From positions 56,381-120,380 of the forward strand of contig JAJCYV010000026.1 in assembly GCA_029262695.1 (NCBI GenBank): a stretch of DNA of 64,000 bases, read 5' to 3'. This document shows, one piece after another, positions 22,063 to 25,665 of this stretch. Position 1 is the first letter of the stretch; the number at the start of each line of letters is the position of its first letter. Position numbers and translations under genes: made by a program. The notes beneath the pieces are model-generated. The model did not search any database. It saw only the letters and a program-made list of their open reading frames with translations, and was not told where the DNA came from. The DNA comes from Chloroflexota bacterium. Its GTDB lineage: Bacteria > Chloroflexota > Dehalococcoidia > SM23-28-2 > RBG-16-64-32.

Positions 22063-23244
22063 ATGAAACGCCGATACGCTGAAATCGCCGGTTGGGGGAT
22101 GTACGTCCCGGAGCGGGTAGTCCCGAACGACACGTTCGTGACGATGGGGCTGGACACCTCCGACGAATGGATCTCCTCGCGCACGGGGATCGAGCGCCGG
22201 CGCGTCGTAGAGGCGGACGAGGCGACGTCGGACATGGCGACGAAGGCGGCGGTGCAGGCGATGGCCGTGGCCGGCCTGCACGCTGGAGACATCGACCTGA
22301 TCGTCGTCGCGACGTGCACGCCGGACCACGTGATGCCGGCGACGGCTTCGATCGTGCAGGACCGCCTGGGGATGCTGAACGCCGGGGCGATGGACCTGAA
22401 CGCGGCCTGCTCCGGGTTCGTTTACGCGCTGGCGACGGGCGCCGCACAGGTGGAATCGGGCCGCGCCAGGAACGTGCTGGTGATCGGCGCGGACGAGCTT
22501 TCGATCTACCTCAACTGGCAGGACCGCAACACATGCGTGCTCTTTGGAGACGGCGCCGGCGCGGTCGTGCTGCGCCAGGCACAGGAACCGGGGATCATGG
22601 GCTCGACGATGGGCTCGGACGGCTCCGGCGCCGGCCTCCTGACGATCAAGGGGGCGTCGCGCGTGCGGGCAAGCCGCAACGGCACCCCGAGCAGCTCCTC
22701 GAACGGCCACGAAGAGGCAGCCAACGGTGCGGCCGCGATGGCCGACGAGAGCTACTTGACGATGAATGGACCGCAGATCTTCCGCTGGGCGACGCAGATC
22801 ATGCCGCGTGCGGCGGAGCAGGTGATGGCGTCCTCCGGACTGACTCCCGAGGATATCTCGCTGTTCATTCCGCACCAGGCCAACCACCGCATCATGGAGG
22901 CGAGCGCCAGACGGCTGGGGCTGCCGCCGGAGAAGGTGTTCTCCAACGTGCGCGAATACGGGAACACGAGCGCGGCGTCGATCCCGATCGCGATGTGTGA
23001 GGCGCTGAGCGCCGGGCGTGTGGACGTCGGCGACTACGTGGTGCTCAGCAGCTTTGGCGCTGGCCTGTCCTGGGCGGCGCTGGCGCTGCGCTGGTCGGTG
23101 CCGATTCCGAGCCATGTTGCGCCGTGGGAGCCCATCCAGCGGCAGGTCGCGTCGCGCATGGCGGCGGTGCGCTCCGTGCTGCGGCGGGGCGAACGCTCCG
23201 TGCGCACGCGGATCGATAGGACGCTCGGTAAGAGCGAAGACTAA
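22063..23244 (+). CDS. fabH: 3-oxoacyl-ACP synthase III family protein
   Basis: TSDEWISSRTGIERRR, LNAACSGFVYAL, FGDGAGAVVL, FIPHQANHRIM, YGNTSAASIPIA; Ser/Asn/Ala-rich insertion near residue 210. Confidence 0.92.
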   Translation: MKRRYAEIAGWGMYVPERVVPNDTFVTMGLDTSDEWISSRTGIERRRVVEADEATSDMATKAAVQAMAVAGLHAGDIDLIVVATCTPDHVMPATASIVQDRLGMLNAGAMDLNAACSGFVYALATGAAQVESGRARNVLVIGADELSIYLNWQDRNTCVLFGDGAGAVVLRQAQEPGIMGSTMGSDGSGAGLLTIKGASRVRASRNGTPSSSSNGHEEAANGAAAMADESYLTMNGPQIFRWATQIMPRAAEQVMASSGLTPEDISLFIPHQANHRIMEASARRLGLPPEKVFSNVREYGNTSAASIPIAMCEALSAGRVDVGDYVVLSSFGAGLSWAALALRWSVPIPSHVAPWEPIQRQVASRMAAVRSVLRRGERSVRTRIDRTLGKSED

Positions 23245-25391
23245 GGCTGCGGCGCCGCGAACTCCTCACGGTCACGCCACTTGCGCAGGAAGCGATAGAA
23301 GTTGCGCTTGCTCAGGCGCTCTCGCTCGTCCGGTGGCGTCGCCAGCCAGTCGACGTGGTCGTGACGCCTGACGGGCAGCGCTGTATCGATGACAGCGCGG
23401 TAGCCGCGGCTGCGGACAGCGTAGCTGAAGTCGAGGTCAAGGTGGCGGTAGAAGCGGAACTTCTCGTCCAGCAGTCCGGCCTCGCTCAGTACGTCGCGGC
23501 GGAAGGCCATGAGGTAGCCCTCGACGGCATCGACATCGCCGGACGACTCCGCTTCTTCGAAGCTGCGCATATCGTCCGTGACGACGCCCCAGCGGCCGGC
23601 GACGCCGACCGTCTCGTCCTCAAGTAGCGGGCGGAGCGCGGCGAAGAGATCGCCGGTGACCTCGACGCTGGTGTCGAGGAGGACGACGCAGCGGCCGCGG
23701 GCCTGGCGAAGCGCGACGTTGCGACCGCCCGCGGTGCCGAGGAAGTGGTCGGCGCGGAAGAAGCGCATCTCCTCGGCGGCCTCGTCAAGCTTGCCGGCCA
23801 CAGGCGCGCACTCTTCCGGGAAGCCGTTGTCGACGACGATCACCTCACCGGCGTCACCGAGCCAGGCCCGGGCCGAAGAGACACAACGCTGCAGCTCCTC
23901 GCAGCCGCGCCGCGCGACGACGCCGACAGTGAAGTCGAGGGCGGGCTTTTCGTCCAGTCGCGAGCTGACGTCCGCGCTGGAGGCGATGTTGCCGGCGTCT
24001 TGCTTCCACGCCGGCACGGGCAGAACGGCGGTCCCGGGGCGGTCGTCGCGCACCTCGAACCCCATGTCGATGATCTGGCCGCGGATGCTGTCGGCGGCGT
24101 CCCAGCGTCTGGCCTTGCGGTGCTGGTGGCGCTCACGTACGAGTTCGGCGACTTCGCCGGTTACCTGCAGCGGGGCGGGCGCCGTCGCCAGATCGAGGCC
24201 GAGGAGGCGGTCGAAGTCCATGAGCAGCTCTCGCTTGATGGGGCCGGGCAGAGATGAGCGGGCGACGCGCCAGGCGACGGCGAGCGCGGCCGGGATGTTG
24301 AGTCCGTCGCGGGCGGCGTCCCAGAAGGCGGCGCGCCGCTTCTCGCCCTCGGCGCGCGCCTTCTTGGTGAGGCGGCCGCTGGCGCTGTGAGTGGCGAGGC
24401 GCAGGCGGTTGAGGCCGCGCTGGGCGGCACGAAGGGAAGCCGGGGTGAAGTTGAGGCGTGAGCCGTGGTGGGCGGTGGCGCAGAGGTAGCGAAAAGCCAG
24501 CGGGTCGAAGCCGCGGCGGTCGAGGTCGGAGACGAGGTATACGTTTCCGGTGGACTTCGCCATCTTAACGCCGTCGACGAGCAGGTGCTGGCCGTGCACC
24601 CAGTGGCGGACGTGCTGGCGGCCGAGTACGGACTCGCTCTGCGCGATCTCATCCTCGTGGTGCGGAAAGATGTTGTCGACGCCGCCGGTGTGGAAGTCGA
24701 TCTCGTCGCCGAGGACGGAGGCGACGATGGCGGAGCATTCGATGTGCCAGCCGGGGAAGCCATCGCCCCAGGGGCTCTCCCACTTGAGTGCGCGGCCGGG
24801 CTCGGCGGCCTTCCAGAGAGCAAAGTCGCGGGGGACGCGCTTGAGGGGGTCGGGCTCGGCGCGGTCGCCCTCCTGCAGGTCTTCGGACTGCTGATGAGAG
24901 AGCTTTCCGTACCCGGGGAAGCTGCTGACGCTGAAGTAGACGTTGCCGCCGGCCTCGTAGGCGCAGGAAGAGTCGACGAGCGACTTGACCATGTCGACCA
25001 TCGCCGGCACGTGGTGCGTCGCCTTCGGGAAGTCGGCGGCGGGCAGGATGTTCAGCTTCGCTTCGTCGGCGAGGAAGGCGTCCGTGTAGAAGCGGGCGAT
25101 CTCCGTGGCCGGCTTGCCTTCGGCGCGCGCGGCGGCGATGATCCGGTCCTCCTCTTGTTCGAGCTGGCCCTCGCGCATATGGCCAACGTCTGTGATGTTC
25201 TTGACGTGGTGCACGGTGTATCCGTCGGCCTCCAGCAGGCGGCGCAGCCAGTCCGCCATGAGGTACGAGCGCAGGTTGCCGATGTGAGAGTAGCGGTAGA
25301 CGGTGGGCCCGCAGGAGTAGAGGCGGACGCGGCCCGACTGAAGCGGAGCGAACTCCTCCTTCTGGCGGGTCAGCGTGTCGTAGATGCGCAT
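23241..25391 (-). CDS. cysS: cysteinyl-tRNA synthetase fused to a C-terminal GT2-type glycosyltransferase
   Basis: CysS: YSCGPTVYRYSHIGNLRSY, HIECSAIVASVLGDEIDFHTGGVDNIFPHHEDEIAQSE, KMAKSTGN. C-terminal ~232 aa: VIVVDNGF, FLGTAGGRNVALRQARGRCVVLLDTSVEV, YRHLDLDFSYAVRSRGYR. Confidence 0.9.
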   Translation of the reverse strand: MRIYDTLTRQKEEFAPLQSGRVRLYSCGPTVYRYSHIGNLRSYLMADWLRRLLEADGYTVHHVKNITDVGHMREGQLEQEEDRIIAAARAEGKPATEIARFYTDAFLADEAKLNILPAADFPKATHHVPAMVDMVKSLVDSSCAYEAGGNVYFSVSSFPGYGKLSHQQSEDLQEGDRAEPDPLKRVPRDFALWKAAEPGRALKWESPWGDGFPGWHIECSAIVASVLGDEIDFHTGGVDNIFPHHEDEIAQSESVLGRQHVRHWVHGQHLLVDGVKMAKSTGNVYLVSDLDRRGFDPLAFRYLCATAHHGSRLNFTPASLRAAQRGLNRLRLATHSASGRLTKKARAEGEKRRAAFWDAARDGLNIPAALAVAWRVARSSLPGPIKRELLMDFDRLLGLDLATAPAPLQVTGEVAELVRERHQHRKARRWDAADSIRGQIIDMGFEVRDDRPGTAVLPVPAWKQDAGNIASSADVSSRLDEKPALDFTVGVVARRGCEELQRCVSSARAWLGDAGEVIVVDNGFPEECAPVAGKLDEAAEEMRFFRADHFLGTAGGRNVALRQARGRCVVLLDTSVEVTGDLFAALRPLLEDETVGVAGRWGVVTDDMRSFEEAESSGDVDAVEGYLMAFRRDVLSEAGLLDEKFRFYRHLDLDFSYAVRSRGYRAVIDTALPVRRHDHVDWLATPPDERERLSKRNFYRFLRKWRDREEFAAPQP

Positions 25392-25434: not shown

Positions 25435-25665
25435 TCAGCCGTGTTCGCCTTCCCACCCCAGTTCAACCCGGCCATCCTCCCAGATGATGACGGGGACGGC
25501 CATGGAGTAGTCGAGCGCCTCTTCCCACCAGTCGGCGTTCTCGTCCACGCGGCGCTCTTCGAAGACGACTCCGCGATCACGGAGAGCGGCGACGGCCTTG
25601 TCGCTGACTTCGCAGTTTCGCAGGGTGTAGACGGTGACGGACACGGGCGATTCCTTGTCCGACAA
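25435..25665 (-). CDS. glutaredoxin-like protein (CxxS-type site)
   Basis: VTVYTLRNCEVSDKAVAALRDRGVVFEERRVDEN...AVPVIIWEDGR. Confidence 0.75.
   Translation of the reverse strand: MSDKESPVSVTVYTLRNCEVSDKAVAALRDRGVVFEERRVDENADWWEEALDYSMAVPVIIWEDGRVELGWEGEHG

Follow-up and report, generated by a model that had tools for sequence, protein, structure and literature searches.

A 64,000-nucleotide stretch of DNA from a Chloroflexota bacterium of the class Dehalococcoidia (hereafter the window) contains a reading frame in which a cysteinyl-tRNA synthetase (CysRS) appears to continue into a GT2-type glycosyltransferase. Is this protein the product of one conserved gene and, if so, what might a glycosyltransferase do when it is attached to the anticodon-binding end of a synthetase? 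No description of a synthetase-glycosyltransferase fusion was found in the literature that we searched, most subscription papers lying outside that search.

The window encodes a CysRS joined to a GT2 domain

The gene occupies positions 23241..25391 on the minus strand and encodes 716 aa plus a stop codon; its translation runs from an ATG at 25391 to 23241 with no internal stops, and relatives keep it as a single ORF. Mechanical ORF finding had placed the start at a GTG at 25580, which we rejected: this would overlap a separate small gene, glutaredoxin-like (UXX-star-like), that lies immediately upstream on the same strand (25436..25644), and related proteins begin with MRIYDTL. The CysRS catalytic domain (24420..25352, minus strand; residues 14-324) matches Pfam PF01406 tRNA-synt_1e with an E value of 5e-95, and the curated cysS model TIGR00435 scores 420.2 bits over residues 1-456, compared to a cut-off of 340. 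Homology with E. coli CysRS identifies the zinc ligands as C27, C219, H244, and E248. The signature motifs are HIGN (residues 36-39), comparable to the HLGN of the canonical enzyme 6ujd, and KMAKS (residues 276-280). The anticodon-binding tail, CysS_C (24042..24161, minus strand; residues 411-450), matches Pfam PF23493 over its cut-off (E value of 4e-5), and its residues R421, R425, W430, D434, and D449 correspond to E. coli R423, R427, W432, D436, and D451.

A 27 aa linker (23943..24023, minus strand; residues 457-483), placed by alignment and by lower model confidence, leads from the tail into a GT2 domain of GT-A fold (23244..23942, minus strand; residues 484-716), which matches PF00535 Glycos_transf_2 at residues 490-614 with an E value of 2e-10 and 41.5 bits, vs. 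a gathering score of 23.3. VVDNG and RN motifs are present, as are D573 (the first Asp of the DXD motif), D652 (the Asp of the ED motif), and H677/H679. In an alignment with 6p61, the DXD motif reads D573-T-S, the second Asp being replaced by Ser, and the ED motif reads L-D652, with Leu in place of Glu. A complete DXD metal motif is thus missing from this domain; DXD is not retained by all GT2 enzymes.

An AlphaFold2 model of the fusion had a pLDDT of 85, with values of about 63-68 over residues 451-470. Foldseek matched the first part of the model to the CysRS-tRNA complex 1u0b (E value of 1e-36) and the second part to the GT-A enzymes GalNAc-T2, WrtF, and 6p61. The preliminary description of this DNA had proposed a full-length CysS running without a stop into a GT2 domain beginning near 23939. 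We found the 716-aa ORF intact, with every motif it had named, and the GT2 domain starting at about residue 484 (position 23942).

The fusion is conserved and maintained by selection

The same continuous ORF crosses the junction in dozens of Chloroflexota genomes. Identity to the window fusion is 87% within the genus, 63-69% within the family, and 56-61% within the order, and the protein is also present in other families of the class. A species-wide collection places it in Dehalococcoidia, SAR202, Dormibacterota, and Ktedonobacteria, and it occurs in two Thermogemmatispora records (T. aurantia and T. carboxidivorans). We collected 73 sequences, 51 of which are distinct at 75% identity. Most examples come from metagenome bins, and single-contig genomes are also among them.

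A stop or frameshift near position 23940, or separate genes in all relatives, had been named as observations that would undo the fusion. In the full-length relatives collected, the CysRS-GT2 junction is free of stops and frameshifts, and one ORF is kept in the genus, the family, the order, and other classes, so that separate genes are not universal. Four fusion loci are broken away from the junction, and L053, L048, and L027 are frameshifted copies. In a quick tree (LG+G4), all 42 fused CysRS domains tested formed one clade with 99% SH-aLRT support. The ratio dN/dS relative to the congener L005 was about 0.19 for the CysRS domain and 0.20 for the GT2 domain; for two other pairs it was 0.29-0.40 for both domains, with synonymous sites near saturation. 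Both domains of the fusion are therefore under purifying selection.

Conservation extends to the functional positions. The zinc ligands and cysteine pocket (C27, C219, H244, E248, and W215) are invariant in 39 aligned fusions. In the tail (E. coli numbers), R423 and R427 are each kept in 37 of 39, D436 in all 39, and an aromatic residue at 432 in 38. In the GT2 domain, N558, R649, D652, and H679 are each present in 39/39 and D573 in 38/39, while the third DXD position is Ser in 31/39.

These data dispose of the explanation that the gene is an assembly artefact or a chance fusion of neighboring genes, the latter having been raised in the preliminary description. The predominance of metagenome bins and the few frameshifted copies could be cited in its favor, although none of these frameshifts lies at the junction. 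The same architecture nevertheless recurs in dozens of assemblies, in the Thermogemmatispora records, and in single-contig genomes, with 42 examples in one clade and both halves under purifying selection; we regard the artefact explanation as refuted, with a negligible chance of being right. We conclude that the fusion, within the resolution of the CysRS tree, had a single origin, and that selection keeps it.

The fused enzyme is an additional CysRS

A separate CysRS was present in all 30 fusion genomes checked, although the copy in G077 is just a fragment at the end of a contig. This count led us to reject the idea that the fused protein is the sole housekeeping CysRS, and the invariant zinc ligands of the 39 fusions led us to reject a zinc-free stand-in CysRS. 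The window gene is thus an additional CysRS whose anticodon-binding tail runs on into a GT2 domain. The phylum contains two CysRS types. Type B is the separate enzyme of the window's own genome (L002); type A comprises the fused domain and also unfused enzymes from Patescibacteria, Planctomycetota, DPANN archaea, and the Chloroflexota families f65, f74, f75, and f77. The window's genome has a third CysRS-related gene, MshC-like and without an anticodon tail, and such a separate MshC-like gene is frequent in fusion genomes. Since the active-site, zinc, and anticodon residues are intact in the 39 fusions, we infer that the CysRS part of the fusion probably still makes Cys-tRNA(Cys).

GT2 relatives without a synthetase domain keep the CysRS tail

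A profile of the GT2 part matched proteins in 118 of 400 Chloroflexota genomes, many of them without a synthetase fusion. We collected 56 GT2 relatives that have no synthetase catalytic domain, and 55 of these carry the CysRS tail at their N-terminus; the single tail-less protein (L191) is a distant, long-branched relative. That such relatives still have CysS_C is new here. When the Pfam CysS_C model was run on nine of them, four scored over the cut-off, three fell just under it, and two had no match. An AlphaFold2 model of a CysS_C-GT2 protein had a pLDDT of 91 and a pTM of 0.85.

Position by position, R423, R427, A435, D436, G446, and D451 (E. coli numbers) have near-zero entropy in the standalone tails and position 432 is always aromatic, while the other tail positions mostly vary. 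E. coli CysRS reads G34 of tRNA-Cys through R427, D436, and W432, and through R423 via water (1U0B; PMC12684709). The GT2 catalytic positions of the standalone set are less constant than the tail: D573 is present in 49/56, D652 in 50/56, and H679 in 26/56, and some members from family f77 have no D573 or no D652. The second copy in family f116 (L141) has lost the synthetase motifs and kept the GT2 domain, and is plausibly an intermediate of catalytic-domain loss; the GT2 tree allows either fusion or fission to have come first. These observations show CysS_C-GT2 to be a unit that recurs across Chloroflexota, whereas the synthetase catalytic domain can be part of the same protein, be encoded at another locus, or have decayed.

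The GT2 family is also linked to the CysRS type. Of the 400 genomes, 94 combined the GT2 family with a type-A CysRS, 7 had the type-A CysRS alone, 24 had the GT2 family alone, and 275 had neither (totals of 101 and 118, so that 94 of 101 type-A genomes have both), with a type-A limit of 540 bits that was set after the scores had been seen and with two partial cases added by hand. Fisher's test gave a p value of about 3e-59 for this co-occurrence, counting genomes as independent despite their kinship. Outside f77, 85 of 89 GT2-bearing genomes have a type-A CysRS. At six f77 loci an unfused type-A CysRS is the convergent neighbor of the CysS_C-GT2 gene; about 20 other f77 genomes carry the GT2 family without a type-A CysRS, often with divergent GT2 parts. 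One of 287 Patescibacteria genomes encodes a CysS_C-GT2 protein with the same tail residues, and the type-A CysRS of that bin groups with the Chloroflexota clade; provided that the bin is uncontaminated, this looks like a joint transfer of the two genes. Transfer on plasmids was considered and set aside: among the plasmid matches listed, we saw ordinary GT2s aligning essentially to the GT part alone. Viral spread was likewise set aside, as there was no viral match.

A candidate tRNA-Cys-directed glycosyltransferase

Because the G34-reading residues persist in proteins that have no synthetase domain, the tail probably binds tRNA-Cys, and the GT2 domain would therefore act on, or at least at, that tRNA. 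The explanation that we favor, tentatively and with a little less than even confidence, is a tRNA-Cys-directed GT2 enzyme, fused in the window to a working CysRS paralogue, that would transfer a sugar to this tRNA. CysS_C would grip the anticodon of tRNA(Cys) and bring the GT2 domain to it, and the GT2 domain would transfer a sugar from a nucleotide-sugar donor. Judging by the tethering alone, the acceptor would most likely be a nucleotide within the anticodon arm. In the fusion, charging and modification would be combined in a single protein. Any choice of sugar, exact acceptor, or physiological purpose would be a guess. Most genomes scanned gave a single tRNA-Cys-like match (confirmed with ARAGORN for the window's own genome), which makes the ordinary tRNA-Cys the likely partner. 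G321 had no match, and extra matches in G107 and G153 were dismissed on visual inspection as something other than tRNA-Cys; there was no sign of a dedicated second tRNA-Cys in the genomes scanned.

The altered DXD motif is the strongest argument against sugar transfer. With D-T-S in place of DXD and Leu in place of the ED Glu, the domain might bind its donor or catalyze transfer in another way or not at all, and the main rival explanation starts here: the GT2 part would be a non-catalytic appended domain, its GT-A fold binding the tRNA or a nucleotide sugar and tuning the CysRS paralogue. Other synthetases carry appended domains, and in the standalone family the GT2 catalytic residues are partly lost while the tail residues are invariant; the latter may be kept partly for folding. 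However, the complete retention of D652, N558, R649, and H679 and the near-complete retention of D573 in the fusions is beyond what a scaffold needs, and a standalone CysS_C-GT2 protein has nothing in cis to tune. We consider a purely appended role somewhat unlikely, but it is a serious contender.

Glycosylation directed at tRNA-Cys has also to be weighed against a small-molecule pathway, in which the CysRS part would couple activated cysteine to an amino sugar while the glycoside would be made by the GT2 part, a division of labor like that of MshC and MshA in mycothiol synthesis. MshC is itself a CysRS paralogue that catalyzes such a ligation, and the window has a redox gene upstream of the fusion, the glutaredoxin-like gene (PF00462, 37.5 bits; NF041212, 43.6 bits, under its cut-off of 66). 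Several lines of evidence nonetheless make this pathway improbable: the fusion keeps the tail with its G34 contacts, which MshC lacks and which is absent from the MshC-like proteins of the same genomes; the GT2 relatives lose the cysteine-activating domain and retain the tail; and conserved thiol or sugar neighbors are absent. The preliminary description had suggested that cysteine activation might be coupled to sugar or thiol-cofactor chemistry. Its fusion stands, and its thiol-cofactor idea is on these grounds not supported; tRNA-Cys is favored over a small thiol because the relatives dispense with cysteine activation and keep the anticodon-reading tail and the GT2 domain.

In the window, a FabH-like gene (22063-23244) is convergent with the fusion gene and overlaps it by 4 bases, and a MATE transporter gene lies beyond the glutaredoxin-like gene on the upstream side. 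The glutaredoxin-like neighbor is at most a candidate component of the fusion system. Across the fusion loci compared, neighbors are clade-specific (e.g., MATE transporter, pyruvate kinase, GlyRS, and RecO); no sugar- or thiol-metabolism operon was conserved at these loci, nor was any neighbor that would supply a sugar or modify tRNA.

The sugar might instead go to the cysteine of Cys-tRNA (S- or N-linked) or to a Cys-tRNA-bound protein such as EF-Tu. Peptide O-GalNAc transferases are among the closest solved folds, and SunS is a GT2 enzyme that S-glycosylates cysteine. Yet the tether would sit at the anticodon-binding tail, a long way from the CCA end, and a product entering translation would be toxic unless removed, with no dedicated second tRNA-Cys seen in the genomes scanned. 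We judge either target, the cysteine or a bound protein, to be quite improbable.

Relation to known systems and implications

With bacterial CysRS (NF011108/PRK14536-like; 6ujd, 3sp1; E. coli 1U0B) the fusion shares the catalytic core, the zinc ligands, a KMSKS-like loop, and the tail; it differs in its C-terminal GT2 domain and in coexisting with a separate housekeeping CysRS. With the GT2 family (PF00535; 6p61, WrtF, GalNAc-T2) it shares the fold, VVDNG, RN, the first DXD Asp, the ED Asp, and the C-terminal His, whereas the second DXD Asp is Ser in most fusions, ED reads LD, a CysRS tail is carried, and there is no membrane or polysaccharide gene context. Its likeness to MshC, also a CysRS paralogue, is limited: TIGR03447 scores 217.8 bits, far from the cut-off of 485.1, and the fusion keeps the tail and has a GT2 domain.

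In LysX (MprF-LysRS) and in IleRS with a GNAT domain (NF040702), a synthetase is likewise coupled to a second enzyme; in both, synthetase and partner differ from those of the fusion, and neither involves a glycosyltransferase. QTGAL is a GT2 member, and we know of no synthetase-derived tail in it or in QTMAN. These two animal queuosine-tRNA glycosyltransferases modify the tRNA anticodon loop (PMC12518689), acting on Q34 of tRNA-Tyr and tRNA-Asp, and they set a precedent for the function proposed for the fusion.

Extended to the whole family, our proposal is that bacteria possess tRNA-Cys glycosyltransferases guided by a borrowed CysRS anticodon module, which in one large clade would be fused to a functional CysRS; in this broad form it is possible, though on the doubtful side. 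To our knowledge, no tRNA modification of this kind is known from bacteria. Automatic annotation likely labels such proteins merely as CysRS or as glycosyltransferase. Even if the GT2 domain had no glycosyltransferase activity, the fact that CysS_C is kept with GT2 time and again, that the fusions form one clade, and that a housekeeping CysRS is encoded separately would clearly mark the fused enzyme as a synthetase paralogue taken up for a task outside ordinary protein synthesis. If the proposal is true, bacteria would glycosylate a tRNA under the guidance of a synthetase's anticodon-reading tail, a large and mostly uncultured phylum would have a second CysRS dedicated to tRNA glycosylation, and bacterial tRNA glycosylation would open as a field.

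Several copies of the fusion are interrupted or degraded. Frameshifts split the copies at L024/L053, L023/L048, L027 and L097 at varied positions, none of which falls at the junction between the CysRS and GT2 parts, and these represent either sequencing errors or decay. Genome G360 carries, besides an intact fusion at another site, a second, decayed copy (L141:6303-7907) in which the CysRS motifs are gone and the GT2 part is retained. We also observed tandem CysRS genes in genome G039 (L028), one of type B, like the separate CysRS of the window's genome, and one of type A, the type that includes the fused domain. Both are unfused, and no close GT2 relative was found in this genome in the search for relatives of the fusion.

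The sole fusion labelled outside Chloroflexota and Dormibacterota is L054, in genome G071 (record title Desulfarculaceae JdFR-97). This bin, which is probably a chimera, contains several CysRS genes, two of which occupy long frames of fused size. A CysS_C-GT2 gene, which keeps the CysRS tail without the synthetase catalytic domain, is located at L235:1147-2154 in a Patescibacteria bin (G479) whose type-A CysRS clusters with the Chloroflexota clade; joint transfer of the two genes or a binning error is possible.

In the window, a 69-aa glutaredoxin-like gene (25436-25644, minus strand), kin to the UXX-star (seleno)protein family, is masked when the fusion ORF is spuriously extended at its 5' end. 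A peptidase S51/cyanophycinase-like gene adjoins the fusion in groups that include Ktedonobacteria and Dormibacterota; we located it adjoining or near the fusion at L026, L060, L062, L063, L068, L074, L077 and L078; in four or five cases, this gene lies immediately downstream, overlapping or abutting the fusion.

The window's fusion protein has no His-rich C-terminal tail. Such tails, for example HSHEHKHWPDHSHTHTHVHR, end the proteins of several fusion lineages (L060, L061, L063, L066, L022/L081, L056 and L058) and possibly serve in metal binding.
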